A stretch of 64,000 nucleotides of DNA, from positions 1 through 64,000 of the forward strand of contig NZ_FNBC01000005.1 of NCBI RefSeq assembly GCF_900102145.1, in the 5' to 3' direction. Within the stretch, counting starts at the first letter, position 1; each line of letters begins with the position of its first letter. This stretch comes from Thermus arciformis (GTDB taxonomy: Bacteria; Deinococcota; Deinococci; Deinococcales; Thermaceae). The position numbers were made by a program, and so were the translations under genes. The notes beneath the pieces were generated by a model. It did no database searches and was not told where the DNA came from. It saw nothing but the letters and a program-made list of their open reading frames with translations. Below are positions 3,756 to 33,712 of the stretch, piece by piece.

Positions 3756-4691
3756 ATGCGGCTTAAGGACCTGGGCGAGCGGGCCCTCCTCGCGAGGCTC
3801 GCCCCCCTGGGCTACCCCCCGGAGGCCCCCCTGCCCCCGGGGGACGACGCCGGGGGGGTTTGGGTGGAGGGAAGGGCCTGGCTCCTCAAGACGGACGGCT
3901 TCCTCTACCGGGAGGTGGCCCTAAGGGGCATGGGGCCCTTTGAGGTGGGGTTTCGGGGGGTGGCGGCCACGGCCTCGGACCTCCTCGCCAAGATGGGGCG
4001 GCCCTTGGGCTTCACCTTGGGCCTCTTTCTGCCCGAGGACCTGGAGGAGAGTTTCGTCCTGGAGCTCGTGCGCGGGGCGGCGGAGGCGGCCAAGCGGCTT
4101 GGGGCCTTCCTCCTCGGGGGGGACACGAACCGGGGGGTGGAGGTGGCCCTCACCGTCTCCGGCTTCGCCCAGACGGAGGCCCCCTTGCCCCGGAGGGCCC
4201 TCCCCGGGGACCTCCTCTACCTCGCGGGCGACCGGTGGGGGAGGACGGGGGCGGCCATCCGGGCCCACTACGAGGGGCGCTCCTTGGAGGGGTTTCCCGA
4301 GATCCGGGAGGCCGCCTTCTACCCCCTGCCCCGCCTGGGGCTCCTCGCCCTCTCCGGCTTCCTCCGGGGAAGCCTGGACTCCTCCGACGGCCTCGCCGAG
4401 ACCCTTTGGCAGCTTGCCGAGCTCGGGGTGGGGGTGGAGGTGGAGGCCCTGCCCCTCTACCCCGACGTCCTGGCCTTCGCGGGGAGCGAGGAGGCGGCCT
4501 TGGAGCTCGTCCTCTACGGGGGCGAGGAGTTTGAGGCGGTCCTGGTGGTGCCCCAGGAAGGGGCGGCCGCGGTGGAGGCGAGGGCCAAGGCCAGGGGGCT
4601 CCCCCTCTTCCGGGCAGGGAGGGTAGTGGCGGGGGGAGGGGTTTACCTCCGGGGGGCGCTCCTTCCCCGGAAGGGGTATACCCACTTCTAG
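3756..4691 (+). CDS. thiL: Thiamine-monophosphate kinase
   Basis: A 311-residue ThiL: phosphorylates thiamine monophosphate to the active cofactor thiamine diphosphate using ATP. The family landmarks are in order: LKDLGERALLARLAP at the N-terminus, PPGDDAGGV (Mg/ATP aspartates), LLKTDGFLYREV, GFRGVAATASDLLAKMGRPLGF, FLLGGDTNRG, SLDSSDGLAETL, and YGGEEFEAVLVV near the C-terminus. Length is normal for the PurM-like kinase fold. It stands alone between the ComB-like gene (divergent) and the SDR gene; no TPP riboswitch was seen in the short upstream region, where a possible -10 (TAGCCT) sits 6 nt before the ATG. Confidence 0.93.
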   Translation: MRLKDLGERALLARLAPLGYPPEAPLPPGDDAGGVWVEGRAWLLKTDGFLYREVALRGMGPFEVGFRGVAATASDLLAKMGRPLGFTLGLFLPEDLEESFVLELVRGAAEAAKRLGAFLLGGDTNRGVEVALTVSGFAQTEAPLPRRALPGDLLYLAGDRWGRTGAAIRAHYEGRSLEGFPEIREAAFYPLPRLGLLALSGFLRGSLDSSDGLAETLWQLAELGVGVEVEALPLYPDVLAFAGSEEAALELVLYGGEEFEAVLVVPQEGAAAVEARAKARGLPLFRAGRVVAGGGVYLRGALLPRKGYTHF

Positions 4692-24601: not shown

Positions 24602-25042
24602 CTACTTCTCCACGGGGAGGTTAGCCCCGGTCCAGGCCTTGTAGCCTCCTAGGATGCTCTTCACGTTGTAGCCCTGGCCCCGGAGGAAGACCAGGCCCAT
24701 GGCCCCCCGGTGCCCGATGCCGCAGTAGATGATGATGGGCTTGCCCTTGGGGATTTCCCCGATCCGCTTGGGGAGCTCGCGGATGGGGATGTTCACCGCG
24801 CCCGGGATGCGCCCGTCCTTGAACTCCGCGGGCTCCCGCACGTCCAGGACGAAGACGTCCAGGGTGTCCATCATCTGCTTGGCGGCGGCGGGCTGGATGC
24901 CGTAGAAGTCCGCGGGCAGGGTGGCGAGGAAGTTCCCCACCTCCCTTACCGTCAGGGCGGAGAAGGTGGTGGTGGTCGCCTGCGCCAGAACCGGGATGAC
25001 CAGAAGAAGCCCAAACCAAGCCAGTTTCCTCATGCCTTTCAT
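24602..25042 (-). CDS. Secreted rhodanese-domain protein
   Basis: A 146-residue single-domain rhodanese with a signal peptide (MKGMRKLAWFGLLLVIPVLAQA) for export. The fold landmarks DVFVLDVREPAEFKDGRIPGAVNIPIREL and the active-site loop IIIYCGIGHRGAMG (Cys107) are present, so it can carry persulfide sulfur. It ends the psr operon; a periplasmic sulfur carrier would logically deliver polysulfide to PsrA, as the unrelated-context Sud protein does in Wolinella. Its ribosome-binding leader is identical over 15 bp to that of psrC. Confidence 0.88.
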   Translation of the reverse strand: MKGMRKLAWFGLLLVIPVLAQATTTTFSALTVREVGNFLATLPADFYGIQPAAAKQMMDTLDVFVLDVREPAEFKDGRIPGAVNIPIRELPKRIGEIPKGKPIIIYCGIGHRGAMGLVFLRGQGYNVKSILGGYKAWTGANLPVEK

Positions 25043-25074: not shown

Positions 25075-25836
25075 CTAAAGGCCAAGCCCTTGCCACTGGC
25101 CCACGGCCACCAGAAGGGCCCTGAGCCCGGCGGCTGCCAGAAGAGCGGCCCACGGGGCCAGGCCTTCTTTCCAGAAGGCCCCAAGCCCCAAGGCCAGGAA
25201 AAGGCCGTAGAGAACCCCGCTTTCCTCCCACAGGTGCCCCCGGGCCTCGAGGGGGAGGGTGAGGGGGTAGAGGAAGGCCAAGAGGAGGGAAGCCCCCAGG
25301 AGGACCCGCAAGGGGTATAAGGCCCAGGGGCTTTTAAGCAGGGCGGCCACCCCCAGCCCCAAGACCAAGGCGGTGAGGGGGAATAGGCCGGCCATCAAGG
25401 CGTTCCAAAGCGGCCGGTTCAGGTTCACCGCCAAGGCCATGCCGGGGTACGCCAGGGCCACCAGGCTAAAGGCCAGCAAGGCCAAGGCCAAGGGCCTTCC
25501 TGGCCCTTTCCCCAGGTAGAGGAGCCCGGCGGACACGAAGGAGAGGGCCAGGCCCCAGGACCCCCACCAGATGGGGCTTGCGGGGTGGAAGGTGAGGAAA
25601 AGCCACACGTGGGTGAAGCGGAAGCGGGCGGGGGATTCGGCCCAGAGCACGAAGAGGTCCAAGGCGATGAGAACCAGGGTCCAAAGGGTGTAGCGGCGGG
25701 CTTCCCTGTGGCCCTTAAGGTGGAGAAGGCCCGTCAGCAAGGCCATGCCCCCTGCCAGCCCCACCAGGATGAAGTGAAGAAGGTTGGTCCAGTGCCAGAA
25801 CTCGCCGGCGTTGGGAAGGCCGTAGAACTCAGTCAT
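25075..25836 (-). CDS. psrC: Polysulfide reductase membrane anchor subunit (NrfD-like)
   Basis: A 253-residue NrfD/PsrC-type protein with about eight transmembrane helices, beginning MTEFYGLPNAGEFWHWTNLLHFILVGLAGGMALLTGL. It anchors the PsrAB dimer, oxidises menaquinol and hands electrons to PsrB; the Thermus thermophilus PsrABC complex is structurally characterised and this protein has the same length. The ATG overlaps the psrB stop by 8 bp and has an AAGGAGG Shine-Dalgarno. Confidence 0.92.
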   Translation of the reverse strand: MTEFYGLPNAGEFWHWTNLLHFILVGLAGGMALLTGLLHLKGHREARRYTLWTLVLIALDLFVLWAESPARFRFTHVWLFLTFHPASPIWWGSWGLALSFVSAGLLYLGKGPGRPLALALLAFSLVALAYPGMALAVNLNRPLWNALMAGLFPLTALVLGLGVAALLKSPWALYPLRVLLGASLLLAFLYPLTLPLEARGHLWEESGVLYGLFLALGLGAFWKEGLAPWAALLAAAGLRALLVAVGQWQGLGL

Positions 25837-26416
25837 GGCGCACCTCCTTCTCCCGGGTGAGCCCCTTCTTGGAGGGGGCGTTCAGATAAAAGAGCTTGGG
25901 CCTGGTGCCGAGCTCGGGCCTCAGCACATCCATCCTCCCTGCCTCCTTTAGGGCTTTGGATACCGGGCTTTCCGGGTCGTCCAGGTCCCCAAAGGTGCGG
26001 CAAAGGGTGGGGCAGGTTTCCACGCAGGCGGGAAGCCGGCCCTGCGCTATCCGGTGGGCGCAGAAGGTGCACTTGCTCACGTGGCCAGCCGGGTGCAGGT
26101 AGCGGGCATCGTAAGGGCAGGCGGCTATGCAGGCCCCGCAGGCGATGCACTTCCTTGGGTCCACCAGGACCAGGCCCTCCTCCGTCTGGTAGCTTGCCCC
26201 CGTGGGGCAGACGGGCACGCAAGGGGGGTTTTCGCAGTGCAGGCACTGTTCGGGGCGGAACTCCACCCAAAGGTCCGGGTAGGTGCCCACTTCCCGCTCC
26301 CGGATCCAGAGGTTATAGACCCCGGGTGGGACCTCGTTTTCCATCTTGCAGGCCACGGCGCAGGCGGCGCAGCCCACGCAGAGGCTAAGGTCAATGGCCA
26401 TGGCGTAGCGGGGCAT
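25829..26416 (-). CDS. psrB: Polysulfide reductase iron-sulfur subunit
   Basis: A 195-residue ferredoxin-type subunit binding four [4Fe-4S] clusters. Sixteen cluster cysteines are visible in CVGCAACAVACKMEN, CLHCENPPCVPVCPTGA, CIACGACIAACPYDA and CTFCAHRIAQGRLPACVETCPTLC. It wires electrons from PsrC to the PsrA molybdenum site. The ATG at 26416 (AGGAGG 5 nt upstream) is preferred to the GTG at 26419. The start overlaps the psrA stop as TGATG. Confidence 0.94.
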   Translation of the reverse strand: MPRYAMAIDLSLCVGCAACAVACKMENEVPPGVYNLWIREREVGTYPDLWVEFRPEQCLHCENPPCVPVCPTGASYQTEEGLVLVDPRKCIACGACIAACPYDARYLHPAGHVSKCTFCAHRIAQGRLPACVETCPTLCRTFGDLDDPESPVSKALKEAGRMDVLRPELGTRPKLFYLNAPSKKGLTREKEVRHD

Positions 26417-28713
26417 CACATCCTCCTTTCGTCCAAGGGCCTGCGGGCCAGGGAGGTGAGGGGGGGAAGCCTGGGCCTTTCCGCCTTCTCCAGCCGGACG
26501 AAGTTGACCCTAAGGCCCGCCCCCCCGGAGATGGGGTCCAGCTTGTACCGGGTCTGGAGGTAGGTATCCGAGGCCCCCCGGCCGTGGGCCACCCTCATGA
26601 GGGGGGCCTTGTGGCCGAAGCCGTGGACCAGGTAGACGCAGTCTTTCCGGATCCTCTCCGTGGCCTTGACCCGCACCGGGCCCTCGCGGGCACCATCTTG
26701 GTTTTCCAGGACCACGTAGTCCCCATCCTTCAAGCCGAGCCTTCGGGCCTCCTCCCGGTGAATCCAGACTTCGTTTTCCGGGTCCATCTCCATGAGCACC
26801 CAGTTGTTCTGGGTGCGGGCGAAGGTGTGGACCGGGCTTCGGCCATAGAGGAGGCGGTAGAAACCGGGGGGAGGTTCCTCGGGCGGGGTGAAGACGGGGA
26901 GGGGCTGGTGCCCCGCTTCCTTGAAGGCTTGGCAGTAGAGCTCAATCTTCCCCGAGGGGGTGCCGAAGGGAAGCCGGCCTTCCTTCTCCCAGTCCTCCAG
27001 CCAAGGCTTGCCCTTCTGCACCAGGGTGCCCATCCCCTTCATCGTCTCCAGGTCAAAGCCGATGCTCTGAAGGCGGGTGTCCAGGTACTCCTCAATGGTC
27101 TTCCAGGGGAAGTAAGCCTCCAGGCCGAGCCGTACCCCGAGCTCCCGGGCGATCCACCAGCCCGGCTTGGTGTCAAAGAGGGGCTCGTGGGCGGGGACCC
27201 GGAGCTCTAGGAAGGGCGTCTTGTGGGCCACGGCCACCAGGTCGTCGTAGCGCTCCAGGTAGGTGGCCTCGGGGAGGATCACGTCGGCCCACATCACGTG
27301 CTCCTGGGGAAGGACGTCTATGGCCACGTAGAGGTCCAGCTTTTTCAGGGCCTCCTTGGTGCGGGGCACGTTGGGGATGGAGTGGAAGAGGTTGATGCCG
27401 TAGGCGATGAGGCCCTTGATGGGGTAGGGCTCCCCGGTGATCATGGGCTCAATGAGCTCCTGGATGGCGGTGGAGCGGGCGAAGAACTTGCCCTTGTCCG
27501 CCCGGGGGCGGAAGCCTTCCGGCTCGTGGTCGCCCCCCGAGGGCCCGGAGCAGCCCCCAGCGGCGGGCTCGAGGGGAAGGGGAGGGGTGGGGTACTTTTC
27601 CAGGTAGGGGCTTTGGGCGATGTAGAACCCGCCCTTGCGGCCGTAGTTTCCCAGGAGGACGTTCACGTAGTAGAGGGCCATCATCCGGTAGGTGTCGTCC
27701 CCGTACCAGACGGTGTGCCGGGTGGGGGGGAGGACCGCCTGGGGCTTGTGGGCGGCCATCTCCCGGGCCACCTGGCGGATGGTTTCGGCGGGGATCTCCG
27801 TGTGCTTCTCCGCCCACTCGGGGGTGAGGTCCTTGACGTGGGCCTTCAGCTCGGCGAAGCCCGTGGTGTACTTTTCCACGTATTCCCTGTCGTAAAGGCC
27901 CTCGTAGATGAGGACGTGGATCCAGGCCAAAAGCAAGGCGGTGTCGGTGCCCGGCTTGATGGGAAGCCACAGGTGGGCCTTGGCGGCGGCGGTGGAGAAG
28001 CGGGGGTCCACCACCACCACCTTGGCCCCCCGCTTGAGGGCCAGGGCGAAGTCCTGGAGCTGGGTGTTGTGGGTGTCCTCCCCGATGTGGTGGCCGATGA
28101 GCACGATGTAGCGGGTGTTTTCCCAGTCCACGGGCTCGTGGCCGCCGATGGGCCGGCCGAAGACCCACTGGGAGGCCACCTCCCGGGGGGCGGTGCAGAT
28201 GGCCACGGAGGGCTTGGCGGCGTTGGGGCTACCCCAGGCGGCGGGGAGGAAGTCCACGAACCAGGAATCCCCGGTGCCGTGGCCGAAGAAGGCGATGGCC
28301 TCGGGGCCGTACTCCTCCTTGATCTTCAGCATCCGTTCGGCCACGTAGTCCAGGGCCTCCTCCCAGGTGGCCACCCGGTACTTGCCCTCCCCCCGCTGGC
28401 TCCCCTCCACGCGGATGAGGGGCCGCTTCAGCCGATCGGGGTCGTAGGTGGTCTGGGGCATGCCCTGGCCTCGAGGGCAGAGCCGGCCCCGGCTTTTGGG
28501 GTTGGCCTCATACCCCTCCACCTTGTAGACCCGGTTTCCCACCGCGTGGGCCACGATGCCGCAGCGCCAGAAACAGCCCTCGCAGATCTGGTAGACGCTC
28601 CGCACCTCCTTGGCGTACCAGGGCACCGGGCTGGCCTTGGCCGGGGAGCTGCCCCTTAAGGCCAGGGCCCCGGCACCTAGGGCGCTAAGCTTCAGAAACT
28701 CCCGTCTTTGCAT
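26416..28713 (-). CDS. psrA: Polysulfide reductase molybdopterin subunit
   Basis: A 765-residue bis-MGD oxidoreductase of the DMSO reductase family. A twin-arginine signal (MQRREFLKLSALGAGALALRGSSPAKA) directs folded export. An N-terminal [4Fe-4S] site has Cys44, Cys47, Cys51 and Cys79 (CEGCFWRC ... GRLCPRGQG), and Cys173 in SVAICTAPREVAS is the expected Mo ligand. It reduces polysulfide outside the membrane. It is translated in one operon: chaperone-psrA-psrB-psrC-rhodanese. A closely related activity (thiosulfate or other sulfur compound) cannot be excluded from sequence alone. Confidence 0.93.
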   Translation of the reverse strand: MQRREFLKLSALGAGALALRGSSPAKASPVPWYAKEVRSVYQICEGCFWRCGIVAHAVGNRVYKVEGYEANPKSRGRLCPRGQGMPQTTYDPDRLKRPLIRVEGSQRGEGKYRVATWEEALDYVAERMLKIKEEYGPEAIAFFGHGTGDSWFVDFLPAAWGSPNAAKPSVAICTAPREVASQWVFGRPIGGHEPVDWENTRYIVLIGHHIGEDTHNTQLQDFALALKRGAKVVVVDPRFSTAAAKAHLWLPIKPGTDTALLLAWIHVLIYEGLYDREYVEKYTTGFAELKAHVKDLTPEWAEKHTEIPAETIRQVAREMAAHKPQAVLPPTRHTVWYGDDTYRMMALYYVNVLLGNYGRKGGFYIAQSPYLEKYPTPPLPLEPAAGGCSGPSGGDHEPEGFRPRADKGKFFARSTAIQELIEPMITGEPYPIKGLIAYGINLFHSIPNVPRTKEALKKLDLYVAIDVLPQEHVMWADVILPEATYLERYDDLVAVAHKTPFLELRVPAHEPLFDTKPGWWIARELGVRLGLEAYFPWKTIEEYLDTRLQSIGFDLETMKGMGTLVQKGKPWLEDWEKEGRLPFGTPSGKIELYCQAFKEAGHQPLPVFTPPEEPPPGFYRLLYGRSPVHTFARTQNNWVLMEMDPENEVWIHREEARRLGLKDGDYVVLENQDGAREGPVRVKATERIRKDCVYLVHGFGHKAPLMRVAHGRGASDTYLQTRYKLDPISGGAGLRVNFVRLEKAERPRLPPLTSLARRPLDERRM

Positions 28714-29212
28714 GGACGGCCTCCTCTAAGAGGTCTACAAGAGCGGCGTAGAAGCCGGTGGGGTCGTGGGCTTTCACCGCCTCGCCGAAGCGCTTTAGCC
28801 AAGGGGCGAGGAACTCCCGGGCGAGCCTTTGCGCCAGGTCGGGGCGCTTGGGGGCCAGGAGGGCCATGGCCTCCCCCAGGGCGGAGAGGTGGTCGGGGAG
28901 GTCCCGCCAGGTTTCCTGGACCTCGAGGCCCCCCTCCTGGTAGAGGGCCAGGAGGCGGTGGAAAGAGGGTCCCAGAAGCTCCCCGTCCCGGGCGTAGCCC
29001 GCGTAGGGCGGGGCGGGCACCCCTTGGGGGTTGGCCACGAAGAGGGCGGTGTAGGCCGCCTGGAGCTCGGCCAAGGGGGGGTGGGGGAGGGCCACCGGGC
29101 CTCCCCTCAGCTCGGCCAGGGCTTCCTCCAGGGTTCCCTCCTGGAGTCCTCTCCAAAGGGCTTCCCCGGGGGGAGCGAAGAGGTTCGCGGTGACCCAGCC
29201 CAGGAGTTCCAT
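28685..29212 (-). CDS. TorD/DmsD-type molybdoenzyme chaperone
   Basis: A 175-residue all-helical protein of the TorD family, first gene of the psr operon. The segment AAYTALFVANPQGVPAPPYAGYARDGELLGPSFHRLLALYQEGGLEV and DHLSALGEAMALLA correspond to the conserved E/DY..LF...G..P.P.E.S and D.L..ELEFM regions. It should bind the PsrA twin-arginine signal and assist cofactor loading. The 3' end overlaps psrA by 29 bp, and the ATG follows an AGGAGG Shine-Dalgarno. Confidence 0.85.
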   Translation of the reverse strand: MELLGWVTANLFAPPGEALWRGLQEGTLEEALAELRGGPVALPHPPLAELQAAYTALFVANPQGVPAPPYAGYARDGELLGPSFHRLLALYQEGGLEVQETWRDLPDHLSALGEAMALLAPKRPDLAQRLAREFLAPWLKRFGEAVKAHDPTGFYAALVDLLEEAVHAKTGVSEA

Positions 29213-29250: not shown

Positions 29251-29328
29251 TGTCCCAAGACGGAGGGCTTTACCCGTGCCTGTCGGAAGGTTTCCTAAGG
29301 CAAATGTCCTTGGGAAGAATGTCCCAAG
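29251..29328 (-). promoter_or_regulatory. Candidate regulator sites upstream of psr operon
   Basis: On the minus strand CTTGGGACA occurs twice, covering plus positions 29251-29259 and 29320-29328, 69 bp apart. The upstream copy is part of a perfect inverted repeat CTTGGGA-N6-TCCCAAG (29309-29328); the downstream one forms TCTTG-N3-CAAGA (29249-29261). They lie in the only promoter region of the operon, right beside the NarL-type regulator gene, and are the best candidates for its binding sites. Confidence 0.45.
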
Positions 29329-29438: not shown

Positions 29439-29466
29439 CCCCACCGCGGCGAAAGCCGCGGTGGGG
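29439..29466 (-). terminator. Hairpin terminator after the response regulator gene
   Basis: Perfect 12-bp arms (29439-29450 and 29455-29466) with a GAAA loop begin 3 bp after the regulator's stop codon. The arms are identical to those of the first hairpin at 24529-24556; on the minus strand GGCCCCAAAAG follows. Confidence 0.7.
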
Positions 29467-29469
29467 TAC

Positions 29470-30066
29470 TTAGACCAGGCCCTGTTCCCGGGCCCAGCGC
29501 ACCAGGTCGGGGGTTTCCATGAGGCCCAGCTTGTTCAGGGCCCGCCCTTTGTAGGTGGAGGCGGTTTTTACGGAAATCCCCAGGCGCTCCGCCACCTGGG
29601 AGAGGGTGTACCCCTGGGCCAACAGGACCACCACCGCCCGCTCCCTTTCGGAGAGGACCTCGGGTCCTGGCTCCCCTTGCCCCTCCAAAAGGGCCTCGGT
29701 CAGGCTGGGGTGGAGGTAGCGGAGGCCCCGCCCCAGACGCTCCAAGGCCTCCAGAAGGTCCTGGTCCAAGGCGTGCTTGGGCAGGTACCCCTTGGCTCCC
29801 AAGGCGAAGGCCCGGGCCACGTAGGCGGGCTCGTCGTGCATGGAGACCACCAGCACCTTGGCCCTCTTCGCCAACTGGGGCAGGGCCTCGAGGCCCCCCA
29901 TGCCCGGAAGGTTCAGGTCCAGGAGGACCAGGTCGGCTTCCCAAGGGGCCTTTAGGGCTTCCTCCGCCCGGGCGAACTCGGCCACCACCTGGTGTCCGCC
30001 TTCTTCCAGTAGGAGCCTGAGGCCCTTGCGCACCAGATGGTGGTCCTCTACCAGCACCACCCTCAT
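29470..30066 (-). CDS. NarL/LuxR-family response regulator
   Basis: A 198-residue two-domain regulator. The receiver domain (MRVVLVEDHHLVRKGLRLLLEEGG, phosphoacceptor Asp50 in DLVLLDLNLPGMGG, VVSMHDEPAYVARAFALGAKGYLPK) is followed by a LuxR-type helix-turn-helix (LSERERAVVVLLAQGYTLSQVAERLGISVKTASTYKGRALNKLGL). It overlaps the histidine kinase gene by 4 bp and adjoins the psr operon on the same strand, so it probably controls polysulfide respiration. The terminator right after its stop separates the two transcripts. Confidence 0.92.
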   Translation of the reverse strand: MRVVLVEDHHLVRKGLRLLLEEGGHQVVAEFARAEEALKAPWEADLVLLDLNLPGMGGLEALPQLAKRAKVLVVSMHDEPAYVARAFALGAKGYLPKHALDQDLLEALERLGRGLRYLHPSLTEALLEGQGEPGPEVLSERERAVVVLLAQGYTLSQVAERLGISVKTASTYKGRALNKLGLMETPDLVRWAREQGLV

Positions 30067-31031
30067 AAAGGCACCCCGAACTCCACCCGGGTGCCTTCCC
30101 CGGGGGCCGAGCGCAGGTGGAGGCTTCCGCCCAGGCCCTCTATGCGTTCCTGCATGCCCAGGAGGCCCACGGAAACCGGGGTCCTTTCCAGGTCAAAGCC
30201 TACCCCGTCGTCCTCCACCGCCCCGAAGAGGCGGTCCTCCTCCACCCAGAGGGCTACCCGGACCCGCCGGGCCTTGGCGTGGCGGAGGACGTTGGTGAGG
30301 GCCTCCTGCAGCACGCGGAAGAGGGCCACCTCCTTTTCCTTGGGAAGGGGAGGCACTTGGAGGTCCGCCTCCACTCGCAGGCCACTTTTTTGGTACTCTT
30401 CCAGATAGCGCCTGAGGGCGGCCTCGAGGCCTAGGTCGTCCAGAAGGGGAAGGCGCAGCTCCCGGGAGAGGCGGCGCACCTCCTCCAAGGCCTCGGCCAC
30501 CTGGTTCCGGGCCTCGGGGAGCTTTTCCGGGTGTTTCTCCGCCACCTTGAGGGTGAGGAGGGCGGCGGTGAGGAGGCTTCCCACCCCGTCATGAAGCTCC
30601 CGGCCCACCCGGCGGCGTTCCTCTTCTTGGGCGCGGAGGAGCCGGGCCGCCTGGCCCAGGCCTGCCCGCTTCAGGGCGAGGAGCAAGAGGGGGGCCAGGG
30701 CCTCGGGGGGCGTGGCCCCCTCCTCGAGGCTCAGGACCAGGACGGCCAGGGGCCTCCTCCCTGGCTCGCCCACGGGGAGGGCCAAGAAGGTGTCCGCCCG
30801 CACCGGGCTTCCTTGAGCCACAGCCTCCTCGGCCAGCCGCCGCGAGCGGCCCACCAGGCTACAGGTGGTGCGGCAGGCCTGCATCTGGAAGAGGCGGAGC
30901 CCCTCCCCCACCCAGTAGGCCTCCCCGCAGCGGATGGAGCCCGCTTCCTCCAGGAGGCGGAGGGCCTTGCGCATCACCTCCTCCCGGGTCTTGGCTTCCG
31001 CCAGGGCCAAGGCCAGACGGGTGCAGTCCAT
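30063..31031 (-). CDS. Soluble HisKA_3 sensor histidine kinase with cysteine-bearing sensor domain
   Basis: A 322-residue NarX/NreB-class kinase lacking transmembrane segments. The N-terminal half (about 1-130) looks GAF-like and carries Cys3, Cys35, Cys53 and Cys57 (GSIRCGEAYW, QACRTTCSLV). The catalytic part has EEERRRVGRELHDGVGSLLTAALL with His147, LFRVLQEALTNVLRHAKARRVRV (N box) and VEDDGVGFD / GLLGMQERIEGLGGSL (G boxes). It is coupled to the response regulator by a 4-bp overlap. The cysteines suggest redox, Fe-S or sulfur sensing in the cytoplasm; this is inference. Confidence 0.9.
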   Translation of the reverse strand: MDCTRLALALAEAKTREEVMRKALRLLEEAGSIRCGEAYWVGEGLRLFQMQACRTTCSLVGRSRRLAEEAVAQGSPVRADTFLALPVGEPGRRPLAVLVLSLEEGATPPEALAPLLLLALKRAGLGQAARLLRAQEEERRRVGRELHDGVGSLLTAALLTLKVAEKHPEKLPEARNQVAEALEEVRRLSRELRLPLLDDLGLEAALRRYLEEYQKSGLRVEADLQVPPLPKEKEVALFRVLQEALTNVLRHAKARRVRVALWVEEDRLFGAVEDDGVGFDLERTPVSVGLLGMQERIEGLGGSLHLRSAPGEGTRVEFGVPL

Positions 31032-31071
31032 CCCTTCCCAGGTTAGCCCCCGGGGGGAGGGAAGGGTGTCC

Positions 31072-31956
31072 CTAGAGGCCGAAGTAGGCCCGGGCCGCCG
31101 CCACGTCCTCTGCGATCTGGGCCCTTAGGGCCTCGAGGGAGGGAAAGCGCCTCTCCTCCCGGAGGCGCTTGAGGAAGCGCACCCGCACCTCCTCCCCGTA
31201 AAGCTCCCCAGCGAAGCCCAGAAGGTGCACCTCCAAGCGCCTTTCCTCCCCCCCCAGGGTGGGCCGCGTCCCCACGTTGGCCACCCCCTTGTAGCGGCCA
31301 AAGGCTCCTTCCGCCTCCACGGCGTAGACCCCGGGGGGAAGGACCTTCAAGGGATGAACGGCCAGGTTGGCGGTGGGAAAGCCAAGACGCCTTCCCATCC
31401 GGTCCCCCTCCACCACCACCCCGTAGGCCCCGTAGGGCCGGCCCAGGAGGTGGCGGGCCTCCTCCACCTTCCCCTCCTTGAGGAGGTCACGGATGCGGCT
31501 ACTCTTCACCGCCTCTCCCCCGAGGCTCAGGAGGGAGACGACCCGGGTGGGGGCCACCTTTTCCAGGGCCTCCGGGCCCCCCGCCCGGCCCCGGCCGAAG
31601 CGGAAGTCCTCCCCCACGTAGATGCGGCTTGCCTGAAGGGCCCTTAGGTCCTCCAGGAAGGCCTCGGGGGGTCTTCTGGCGAACTCCTCGTTGAAGGGCA
31701 CCGCCAGGATCAGCTCCACCCCAAGGGCCCTTAGGGCCTCCACCTTTTCCGTGAGGTCCATAAGGAAGCCCTCCCCCCGGGTGAAGACCTTGGTGGGGGG
31801 GTCAAAGGTGTAGACGAGGAGGGGCTGGTGGAGGCGCTTGGCCTCGGCCAGGGCCTGGTGGAGGAGGTGCTGATGGCCAAGGTGGACCCCGTCAAAGGAG
31901 CCCACGGCCACCACCTTGGGGCCCTTGGGGACGTCAGCGACCTCGGAGAAAAGCAT
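31072..31956 (-). CDS. ribF: Bifunctional riboflavin kinase/FAD synthetase
   Basis: A 294-residue RibF making FMN and FAD. The N-terminal adenylyltransferase half has VVAVGSFDGVHLGHQHLLHQAL, LLVYTFDPPTKVF, YVGEDFRFGRGRAG and VKSSRIRDLLKEGKVEEA; the C-terminal kinase half has GDRMGRRLGFPTANLAV, PPGVYAV, GVANVGTRPT and LEVHLLGFAGELYGEEVRVRFLKRLREERRFPSLEALRAQIAED. The start overlaps the Nudix gene end by 23 bp, so the pair is co-transcribed. Confidence 0.96.
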   Translation of the reverse strand: MLFSEVADVPKGPKVVAVGSFDGVHLGHQHLLHQALAEAKRLHQPLLVYTFDPPTKVFTRGEGFLMDLTEKVEALRALGVELILAVPFNEEFARRPPEAFLEDLRALQASRIYVGEDFRFGRGRAGGPEALEKVAPTRVVSLLSLGGEAVKSSRIRDLLKEGKVEEARHLLGRPYGAYGVVVEGDRMGRRLGFPTANLAVHPLKVLPPGVYAVEAEGAFGRYKGVANVGTRPTLGGEERRLEVHLLGFAGELYGEEVRVRFLKRLREERRFPSLEALRAQIAEDVAAARAYFGL

Positions 31957-32422
31957 GGTGGTAAAGGACCCCCACGATTCCGGTGGCGGAAAACTCCACC
32001 TCGCCCCTCTGGTGCATGGCCAGGGCCCTTTCCGGCTCCAGCCAGACCACCTCTATGGCCTCGTCCTCGTCGGGGGTGGCCTCCACCTCCTTGAGGTTCT
32101 CCGCCAAAAAGACGTGGGTCTTCTCGTCGGTGAAGCCGGGGGAGACGTAGTAGCTGAAGAGGTAGGTGAGGTCTCCCGCAAGGCCAGTCTCCTCCGCGAG
32201 CTCCCGCCTCGCTGCCTCCAAGGGGTCCTCCCCGGGCTCTATGAGCCCCGCGGGGATCTCCAAGGGGGCGAGGCCCACGGCGGGGCGCATCTGGCGCACG
32301 AAGAGCATCTTCCCTTCCCTCAGGGCGATCACCGCCACCGCGGGCTTGTGCTCCACGATCTCGTAACGGCCTTCCAGGGCCAGGTTCAGGATGCGGCCCC
32401 GGTAGAGGTAGGTGCGCTCCAC
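31934..32422 (-). CDS. Nudix hydrolase, ADP-ribose pyrophosphatase type
   Basis: A 162-residue Nudix protein with an intact box GLIEPGEDPLEAARRELAEETGL. The surrounding sequence (YRGRILNLALEGRYEIVEHKPAVAVIAL, RQMRPAVGLAPLEIPAGLIEPGE, SPGFTDEKTHVFLAENL) matches bacterial ADP-ribose pyrophosphatases, including the characterised Thermus enzyme as I recall it. It would cleave ADP-ribose to AMP and ribose 5-phosphate. The GTG start at 32422 is preceded by TAACAT ending 6 nt upstream, consistent with a leaderless transcript that also carries ribF. Confidence 0.9.
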   Translation of the reverse strand: MERTYLYRGRILNLALEGRYEIVEHKPAVAVIALREGKMLFVRQMRPAVGLAPLEIPAGLIEPGEDPLEAARRELAEETGLAGDLTYLFSYYVSPGFTDEKTHVFLAENLKEVEATPDEDEAIEVVWLEPERALAMHQRGEVEFSATGIVGVLYHHAFLRGR

Positions 32423-32436
32423 CCCCTTATGTTAAG

Positions 32437-32463
32437 GCCCCGGGGGCACCCTGCCCCCGGGGC
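32437..32463 (-). terminator. Hairpin after the pentaheme cytochrome gene
   Basis: Perfect 12-bp GC arms (32437-32448 and 32452-32463) with a CCC loop lie 11 bp after the cytochrome stop codon. The Nudix promoter follows at once. Confidence 0.65.
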
Positions 32464-32474
32464 GTTCGCGCCTT

Positions 32475-33590
32475 TTACTGGAGAGCGTTCAGGGTGGCCA
32501 GGAGGACCTGGCGGGTGTAGGTGGGGTTGTGGACCCCCTTGGAGCCGTCGTTTTGGATGAGGAGGTAGTTCCAGCTGGCCCGCACGATGGGGTCCTTGGT
32601 GGGGAAGACGGGCTGGCCCTTCTCGTCCTTGATGTCCCCGAGCTGGCTGTAGAGGACGGTGCCGTCCGTGAGGGTCATCTTGAAGGCGATCTGCCCGGCG
32701 ATGGAGAGGATGTCCACCCGGTAGACCGGGGCCTTGACCGGGGTGTTGGGGGTGAACTGGCCGTTTTCCGGGTTGTAAGCCCGCACCGTCTTGATCCGGT
32801 CCCGCACCGCCAGCACCCGGGCGTTCACCTTGGTCCGCACCAGGGCGAGGAGGTGTTCGGTGTTCTCCTGGACCATCTCCTGGGTGTACTTGGCCCCGTG
32901 GCAGGAGGCGCAGAGGTTTTCTGGAGCCTTAAAGGTGTGGCTGCTGTACTCGCCGGTCCCCGCCAGGCTCATGTGGCAGGTGGAGCAGGCGTTTCCGGTG
33001 AAGAAGGCGTGGGGGTTGGGCCATTCCTTGGTGTCGTCCACGAAGAAGGCGTTCTTGCCCAGGATCACGTCCCCCTGGCTCGAGGCGTGGGGGTAGGTGT
33101 AGCGCCCGGGGTCCTCGGCGTTCCAAGTGATGCGGCCGTTGCGGGAGTTGTGGCAGGCGATGCACAAGGCGGCGTTGCCCACGGCGGTGGCCTTGAAGCC
33201 GGAGGGGAGCATGGGGGTGTCTTGGGACAGGCGCAGGTCGCCGTCCTCGTCGTGGCAGGTGTTGCAGGTGATGGGCTTCACCTGGGCTTGGGTGAGGCCG
33301 AGGCCCTTCAGGTAGTCCACCGTGGCCGGCTTGCCATCGGGCCCCACGAGGTTCCCCGGGTTCCCCTTCTTAAGCTGCTCCAGCCAGGCCAAAAAGCCCT
33401 GCTCGCTGTGGCAGCGGGCGCAGTGGGCGGCGGCCTCGCCCCTGGCCTCCACCGTGGCCACAGCAAGGGTCTTCTCCCCCATGACCCCGTTGTTGTGGGC
33501 GCTTCCCTCCCACTCCTTCTGGATGGCCTCCTTGTTGGAGAAGGCCACCACGAGGCCCAGGGCCAGGAGGGCGAGTAGAGCTTTCTTCAT
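32475..33590 (-). CDS. Exported pentaheme c-type cytochrome
   Basis: A 371-residue protein with a signal peptide (MKKALLALLALGLVVAFS) and five CxxCH haem-binding motifs: CARCH, CNTCH, CIACH, CSTCH and CASCH. The C-terminal third (about 235-371) is haem-free. It must be a periplasmic or membrane-attached electron carrier or reductase; I do not recognise the family as NrfA or a named reductase. The start ATG 33590 has a GTAAGGAGG Shine-Dalgarno and is preferred to the open frame at 33620. An FNR-like palindrome lies about 41 bp upstream, suggesting anaerobic control. It is monocistronic. Confidence 0.88.
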   Translation of the reverse strand: MKKALLALLALGLVVAFSNKEAIQKEWEGSAHNNGVMGEKTLAVATVEARGEAAAHCARCHSEQGFLAWLEQLKKGNPGNLVGPDGKPATVDYLKGLGLTQAQVKPITCNTCHDEDGDLRLSQDTPMLPSGFKATAVGNAALCIACHNSRNGRITWNAEDPGRYTYPHASSQGDVILGKNAFFVDDTKEWPNPHAFFTGNACSTCHMSLAGTGEYSSHTFKAPENLCASCHGAKYTQEMVQENTEHLLALVRTKVNARVLAVRDRIKTVRAYNPENGQFTPNTPVKAPVYRVDILSIAGQIAFKMTLTDGTVLYSQLGDIKDEKGQPVFPTKDPIVRASWNYLLIQNDGSKGVHNPTYTRQVLLATLNALQ

Positions 33591-33630
33591 AAGCGCCACC
33601 TCCTTACAGGGATAGTCCACACCCCTGCTA

Positions 33631-33642
33631 TGACTTAAGTCA
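33631..33642. promoter_or_regulatory. FNR/CRP-like palindrome upstream of cytochrome gene
   Basis: TGACTTAAGTCA is a perfect 12-bp palindrome; with the flanking T on the minus strand it reads TTGAC-N4-GTCA, one base from the TTGAC-N4-GTCAA boxes of FNR/Dnr-type regulators. It is 41 bp from the cytochrome ATG. Confidence 0.5.
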
Positions 33643-33712
33643 AGGGTAATTTGTCCCTCGGGGGTAGCCCCGCCTCCAAGAAGGTTGGAGCCGTTTTCGC
33701 CAGGCCTTTCGG

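Follow-up and report, generated by a model that had tools for sequence, protein, structure and literature searches.

The window, meaning the whole 64,000-nucleotide stretch that was analysed, carries on its minus strand a gene for a multihaem cytochrome c, present as a single copy in the genome from which the window was taken.

32475..33590, minus strand: pentahaem cytochrome c gene, 371 residues, ATG at 33590 (open reading frame)
33408..33422, minus strand: haem motif 1, CARCH, residues 57-61
33252..33266, minus strand: haem motif 2, CNTCH, residues 109-113
33150..33164, minus strand: haem motif 3, CIACH, residues 143-147, with the invariant Arg150 at +3
32973..32987, minus strand: haem motif 4, CSTCH, residues 202-206
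32898..32912, minus strand: haem motif 5, CASCH, residues 227-231
32478..32897, minus strand: C-terminal domain of helix, beta insert and helical hairpin, with the invariant His354 (GVHNP)

Two or more CxxCH motifs were observed in 0 of 20000 composition shuffles of this protein. A preliminary description of the locus had announced an exported protein of 371 residues with five CxxCH motifs and a haem-free C-terminal part of about 135 residues, and the reading frame bears this out: the motifs start at residues 57, 109, 143, 202 and 227, the last one ends at residue 231, and the 140 residues that follow are haem-free. Export agrees with the hydrophobic N-terminal stretch MKKALLALLALGLVVAFS, which by eye resembles a Sec signal or an anchor. 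That the protein belongs to no named family is supported as well, its role being presumably respiratory, and no description of it turned up in the open-licence papers searched. A GC-rich stem-loop without a T run is visible by eye at 32438-32462, between the cytochrome stop and the NUDIX start, and terminator and sigma-70 scans called none.

Neighbourhood and distribution of the cytochrome gene

The preliminary description saw no partner genes nearby. In fact, the same strand carries, 1.4-7.9 kb downstream, a two-component system and a torD-psrABC-rhodanese block, in a gene order that is the same in 13 genomes with an intact cytochrome, and a promoter element is common to all three units.

31072..32422, minus strand: ribF and NUDIX hydrolase, backbone genes of the chromosome that separate the cytochrome from the psr block
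30063..31031, minus strand: histidine kinase (HisKA_3/HATPase, family match)
29470..30066, minus strand: NarL/FixJ-type response regulator (family match)
28685..29212, minus strand: TorD-type chaperone (Nitrate_red_del, family match)
26416..28713, minus strand: PsrA, full-length match to PDB 2vpw chain A
25829..26419, minus strand: PsrB, 4Fe-4S dicluster subunit (family match)
25075..25836, minus strand: PsrC, full-length match to PDB 2vpw chain C
24602..25042, minus strand: exported rhodanese-like protein at the end of the psr block (named by eye)

Judged by these matches, the TorD-PsrABC-rhodanese locus is the solved Thermus polysulfide/thiosulfate reductase; the strain behind the PsrABC of 2vpw is T. 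thermophilus HB27 (PMC3764938). The histidine kinase shows by eye no evident membrane segment and has several cysteines in its N-terminal part (C3, C35, C53, C57), and it is possibly a redox sensor. Right after the stop of the response regulator, a GC-rich stem-loop noticed by eye at 29439-29466 likely separates the kinase-regulator transcript from that of torD-psrABC. A paralogous NarL-type two-component pair was seen in G033 (L129:5600-14001), beside another gene set for an Fe-S/molybdopterin oxidoreductase.

Searching 32 loci with 17 window proteins (tblastn) revealed a stable backbone order, rpoD - thpR - NUDIX - ribF - gcvPB, interrupted by two optional blocks. One is the cytochrome, which lies between thpR and NUDIX; the other, kinase - response regulator - TorD - PsrA - PsrB - PsrC - rhodanese, lies between ribF and gcvPB. 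Both blocks, with the cytochrome intact, are present in 13 genomes. In many genomes an amidohydrolase-like gene of about 457 residues (by eye) stands between thpR and the cytochrome or NUDIX, and in G033 (L042:5281-6195) CRISPR-like repeats replace the eamA gene between rpoD and thpR.

The cytochrome was matched in 22 of the 50 Thermaceae genomes searched. Among the 27 Thermus genomes, 15 have an intact full-length gene; further copies are frameshifted (G046), partial in a poor draft (G042) or an end piece at a contig edge (G032), G039 (L058:11364-11492) and G048 (L059:3363-3599) hold deletion remnants, and seven have no match. In the tree of backbone proteins, no genome is closer to that of the window than G048. 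The only carriers in the family outside Thermus are G049, from another genus (74% identity), and G020 (51%). The pentahaem cytochrome is a real gene, conserved yet dispensable.

Three of the 27 Thermus genomes have the cytochrome without psr (G024, G033 and the frameshifted G046), as has G049, and two have psr without the cytochrome (G023 and G043), so that the cytochrome, other than expected of a PsrABC subunit, does not always accompany psrABC. In G049 it lies beside NUDIX-ribF, psr being found neither at the locus nor elsewhere at high identity, which indicates that the cytochrome either took this place before the genus arose or came in together with its neighbours. Over 25 genomes, 13 have both, two psr only, three the cytochrome only and seven neither (Fisher p 0.009, phylogeny ignored). 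This count excludes G032, whose copy is at a contig end, and G042 (65% complete, many frameshifts), to which the tree test assigned both genes; G046 was scored as cytochrome-positive despite its frameshift. On a tree of four backbone proteins, however, with at least seven changes of the cytochrome and eight of psr, an independent-pairs test yielded six pairs, about 4 going the same way versus 1.5 the other (p 0.375-0.69). This is not significant, and the presence data alone therefore do not prove a link between cytochrome and psr. The cytochrome is an optional module that has been gained and lost separately from psr.

A promoter element before three transcription units

Upstream of the cytochrome a conserved element is directly followed by a -35-like TTGAC, and copies of the element precede the histidine kinase and torD-psrABC.

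33644..33657, minus strand: conserved element GGGACAAATTACCC, upstream of the cytochrome
33639..33643, minus strand: TTGAC, -35-like, directly after the element
33631..33642, no strand: palindrome TGACTTAAGTCA, about 40 bp before the ATG
31059..31072, minus strand: element copy GGGACACCCTTCCC, upstream of the histidine kinase
29312..29325, minus strand: element copy GGGACATTCTTCCC, upstream of torD-psrABC

The element (consensus GGGACAT(A/C)TTACCC) is conserved, together with the TTGAC, in 17 of 18 cytochrome upstream regions; G020 is the only region without it, and in G036 it has A in first place. In the upstream regions matched by script, 16 in number, it begins 59-67 bp ahead of the start codon. 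I scored the other promoters with a weight matrix trained on the cytochrome promoters of other genomes only (leave-one-out), taking all intervals of the same length from the same locus as the null. Within the 64-kb window only the cytochrome's own site outranks that of torD. With p-values that are inflated upward, as the null contains the cytochrome's own site in overlapping intervals, and that come from related genomes and hence are not independent, the kinase upstream region reaches p < 0.05 in 15 of 16 psr-positive genomes (exception G023, 0.098) and the torD upstream region in 12 of 16 (exceptions G025, 0.154; G037, 0.096; G023, 0.40; G043, 0.089). G023 and G043 are also the two psr-positive genomes that lack the cytochrome.

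The exact pattern GGGACANNNTNCCC occurs 11 times in the 2.44-Mb genome of the window (G000), three of these matches being in the three promoters within 4.3 kb. Compared with a reversed control the excess is clear in G000 (11 versus 2), slight in G028 (12 versus 8) and G029 (17 versus 12), and missing in G041 (8 versus 8) and G025 (6 versus 12). The share of matches located at the psr/cytochrome locus is 3/17 in G029, 3/8 in G041, 1/12 in G028 and 1/6 in G025. Five of the other eight matches in G000 are within coding frames and one (L087) is in a short gap between two genes that both lie on the other strand; the remaining two are 29 bp before a CBS-domain gene and 19 bp before a cytochrome c gene on the sox side. 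This last, GGGACA-type element (L130, near 4021-4034, minus strand, corresponding to G000:C50:109021-109034) is identical in G028 and G041, and the monohaem cytochrome c gene behind it diverges by eye from sox-like genes. I did not count it, as it sits between a TTGAC and its putative -10.

The shared element suggests that the cytochrome is probably co-regulated with the PsrABC sulfur-respiration locus, and the adjacent NarL-type regulator is a natural candidate for binding the element. All four cytochrome-positive genomes that lack the kinase-regulator pair (G024, G033, G046 and G049) keep the element at the cytochrome, and the pair can thus not be the sole regulator; either another regulator can use the element or it is a relic there.

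The preliminary description had pointed instead to the palindrome TGACTTAAGTCA as FNR-like. The palindrome is indeed present at about 40 bp before the ATG, but it is perfect in one of the 18 upstream regions, that of the window's own genome, and the FNR-like reading does not hold. Its left half is the conserved -35-like TTGAC, and only 3 of the 17 regions with this TTGAC preserve the right half, GTCA. In the window 37 perfect 12-bp palindromes were counted, and 20 mononucleotide shuffles gave 37.75 on average, so that a palindrome as such is not above chance; TGACN4GTCA occurs once in the window against a mean of 0.6 in shuffles. The FNR consensus is TTGATN4ATCAA, which is absent from the 64-kb window. 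With the dyad not conserved and the consensus missing, I reject an FNR-regulated promoter and regard the palindrome as probably a chance match. PMC6282519 reports an FNR-like sensor to be absent from T. thermophilus, and states the same of NarX/NarL.

Relation to the NrfA superfamily

Pfam gave generic multihaem models and a partial match to Cytochrom_C552 (NrfA) over residues 198-367, which is marginal, with 25.0 bits where the cut-off is 24.1. Taken with its neighbours in frame, the cytochrome scores 26.5 bits to the NrfA model, against 466-479 bits for true Thermus NrfA, and NCBIfam had no match near a cut-off. When the PDB was searched with the single protein, only designed SAKe proteins reached a significant E, a false match to the stretch AYNPENGQF, and no chain of the solved PsrABC entries appeared at E<=10; with a profile SAKe came first again, with NrfA at E 0.03-0.3 only. 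The NapC/NrfH family (PF03264) was not found in G000 or in 23 of the 27 Thermus genomes, and the four positive genomes are the four with NrfA at E<1e-139. True NrfHA operons were seen in these 4 of 27 (L089-L092, in G037, G034, G039 and G047), where the NrfA has its haem 1 written CLNCH in place of CxxCK. NrfA itself was rejected as the identity of the cytochrome, given the partial PF02335 match, Arg150 at the site of the catalytic Tyr, and the lack of NrfH.

The order of conserved residues is nonetheless that of NrfA. Ten histidines are invariant in the alignment of 17 orthologues, five in the CxxCH motifs and five outside them (H32, H168, H194, H218 and H354). They follow the sequence one His, haems 1-3, two His, haem 4, one His, haem 5 and one His in a G-x-H-(S/N)-P hairpin, as in NrfA. 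In NrfA, four of these five histidines ligate haems and the remaining one is part of the active site. H32, H168, H218 and R150 are invariant in the wider family alignment of 30 rows (R150 in 30/30) and H354 in a diverse alignment of ten, and the counterpart of H194, read from the alignment, is one residue nearer to haem 4 in distant rows. When four Thermus NrfA are aligned along, the columns of the five haem motifs, of H218 and of H354 are invariant, whereas H32, H168 and H194 correspond to NrfA histidines by order only. MAFFT aligns H168 beside H262 and not with the His of QHPEYE, and NrfA has several histidines between haems 3 and 4, which leaves the equivalence of H168 one of order. R150, at +3 from the haem-3 His, stands in the place of a Tyr in NrfA (CAQCHVEYYF). 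An hhalign comparison between A1 and Thermus NrfA (probability 89.8) matched haem 1 to NrfA haem 2 and passed over haem 3, and this register was therefore not used. With five CxxC[HK] motifs in register with the NrfA core and the same His order, the protein fits the NrfA/HAO/OcwA superfamily.

The helical bundle that follows the last haem in this superfamily is also predicted, with helices at 233-261, 334-346 and 356-370. Outside the C-terminal domain the two AlphaFold models are of low quality (mean pLDDT 54.2 and 57.0), and they are confident only for roughly residues 240-340. For residues 229-371 of the first model the top match is the octahaem sulfite reductase MccA (4rkm; Z 10.1, rmsd 4.0, 80 aligned), followed by OcwA (6i5b; Z 7.5, rmsd 2.4, 74 aligned), the nonahaem cell-surface reductase of Thermincola potens, and octahaem nitrite reductase (3f29; Z 6.4, rmsd 3.4, 88 aligned), the next, unrelated match having Z 4.4. 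The second model matches OcwA best (Z 7.1, rmsd 7.9, 169 aligned over residues 55-371, 23% identity), then NrfA (6v0a; Z 5.5, rmsd 9.9, 223 aligned) and NrfHA (2vr0; Z 5.4, rmsd 5.3, 127 aligned), with rows below starting at Z 3.5; this comparison of the haem core (Z 5.4-7.1) uses a low-confidence model, and Z <8 can mean a common arrangement. Plain Foldseek returned nothing at E<=0.001.

The best full-length structural match, OcwA, covers the haem region and the C-terminal helices and likewise has a canonical motif at its counterpart of NrfA haem 1. It differs in having nine haems, against the five CxxCH of the cytochrome, and a c554-like front half that the cytochrome lacks; in turn the cytochrome has a predicted beta insert inside its C-terminal domain. 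MccA, alike in the C-terminal domain, has eight haems and a Cu site (PMC6703420) where the cytochrome has five haems. NrfA shares five haems in register and the columns of H218 and H354, but the cytochrome has a partial 25-bit Pfam match only, Arg for Tyr, and no NrfH in its genome. Overall the cytochrome looks like an unnamed subfamily of the NrfA superfamily, a distant cousin of nitrite and sulfite reductases.

Relatives extend beyond the Thermaceae. In the wider phylum 31 of 111 genomes match the cytochrome, the nine additional ones being order-level relatives (E 1e-6 to 1e-3). In seven of the eight order-level loci read (L031, L032, L034-L038) the match is a ten-haem protein in which the five-haem unit is duplicated, unlike the single unit in Thermus, with the conserved His and Arg and 22-26% identity; the eighth, L033, was dropped, having no multihaem frame. 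By eye, no common partner is evident in the neighbourhoods of the ten-haem relatives L124 and L125. The sole match among 72,556 plasmid records is a Nitratireductor 'cytochrome C' (WP_224873602.1; 21.8% identity over 87% of the query), a single unit with the same His and Arg. Unlike the Thermus gene it adjoins nqrA-F; in L123:2307-8957 it diverges from a complete nqrA-F set accompanied by FAD:protein FMN transferases.

Possible roles in sulfur-linked respiration

The explanation that best accommodates the haem motifs, the conserved histidines, the synteny and the shared element, all read from the sequence, is that of a periplasmic cytochrome of the NrfA/OcwA/MccA superfamily belonging, with the kinase-regulator pair and psrABC, to an optional regulon for sulfur-linked anaerobic respiration; I hold this to be reasonably probable, with export, haem ligation, co-regulation, donor and acceptor as inferences. 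The cytochrome would be made from its own promoter under an operator-like GGGACAT-N3-TnCCC abutting the -35, and the same operator-like element, preceding the two-component system and the torD-psrABC operon, would join the three into one regulon. The protein would carry five haems in NrfA order and then a short C-terminal helical hairpin supplying a conserved His (GVHNP). Electrons may come from the menaquinol pool through a dehydrogenase other than NapC/NrfH, and the cytochrome would either hand them on or use haem 1 to reduce a small acceptor. Most likely it is a periplasmic electron carrier or a terminal reductase in sulfur-linked anaerobic respiration, other roles taking a smaller share of the probability.

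Between these two roles, that of a purely electron-transferring, all-bis-His pentahaem shuttle, serving several chains in the periplasm and having no substrate of its own, stands at close to an even chance. It would account for exactly five extra conserved histidines for five haems, for the absence of a CxxCK haem and of the NrfA Tyr, and for a gene so dispensable that G039 and G048 keep only remnants; however, catalytic NrfA has the same 4+1 count of histidines, and the invariance of R150 is left unexplained. PMC8840924 and PMC12285233 describe NrfA as having four bis-His haems and one open haem with Arg, Tyr and His in its second sphere. That the cytochrome is itself a terminal reductase, with a five-coordinate haem 1 (CARCH) as in NrfA and OcwA, H168 and R150 in the second sphere, and a sulfur or nitrogen oxyanion or an extracellular acceptor as substrate, I can propose tentatively. 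The five non-motif histidines in NrfA order, of which NrfA uses four as ligands, and an Arg at the NrfA Tyr position invariant in all 30 rows argue for it, as does OcwA, whose fifth haem, bound by a motif other than CxxCK, is an open active site (PMC6703420). The match of H168 by order only, with MAFFT placing it next to H262, argues against it, and H168 may simply ligate haem 1. According to PMC8840924, Tyr218Phe in W. succinogenes NrfA loses nitrite reduction and keeps sulfite reduction, and hence a site without Tyr would not exclude sulfur chemistry.

Adjacency and the shared element might also suggest a subunit or dedicated partner of the PsrABC complex, which is quite improbable, as cytochrome and psr are lost and gained independently, no solved PsrABC chain came up at E<=10, and the cytochrome of G049 is linked to NUDIX-ribF with psr found neither there nor elsewhere at high identity. 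Alternatively, the cytochrome may be a chance neighbour at an insertion-prone site, functionally unconnected to psr, and the element a feature of promoters in general. An amidohydrolase-like gene is inserted there as well, CRISPR-like repeats lie nearby in G033, the housekeeping genes ribF and NUDIX lie in between, and the co-occurrence statistics are weak. I nevertheless consider this unlikely, as three of only 11 exact matches in 2.44 Mb fall in three promoters within 4.3 kb and the matrix test holds for the kinase in 15 of 16 genomes and for torD in 12 of 16.

The reading as a member of a sulfur-linked regulon can be sharpened to a bolder proposal, which I regard as doubtful: a branch of the NrfA superfamily, found in Thermaceae, ten-haem Deinococcota and at least one Alphaproteobacterium, in which haem 1 is CxxCH and the catalytic Tyr has become an invariant Arg, acting in Thermus as a terminal reductase of a sulfur oxyanion or an extracellular acceptor and induced together with PsrABC through the GGGACAT-N3-TnCCC operator. 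T. scotoductus SA-01 reduces metals, yet its genome paper found no Shewanella- or Geobacter-like cytochromes (PMC3235269). The cytochrome would enlarge a superfamily for the reduction of nitrogen and sulfur oxyanions and for extracellular electron transfer by an uncharacterised pentahaem subfamily whose active-site signature is altered. For the PsrABC of Thermus, whose structure is known, the locus offers a candidate regulator, an operator that can be tested and a cytochrome that is probably co-regulated.
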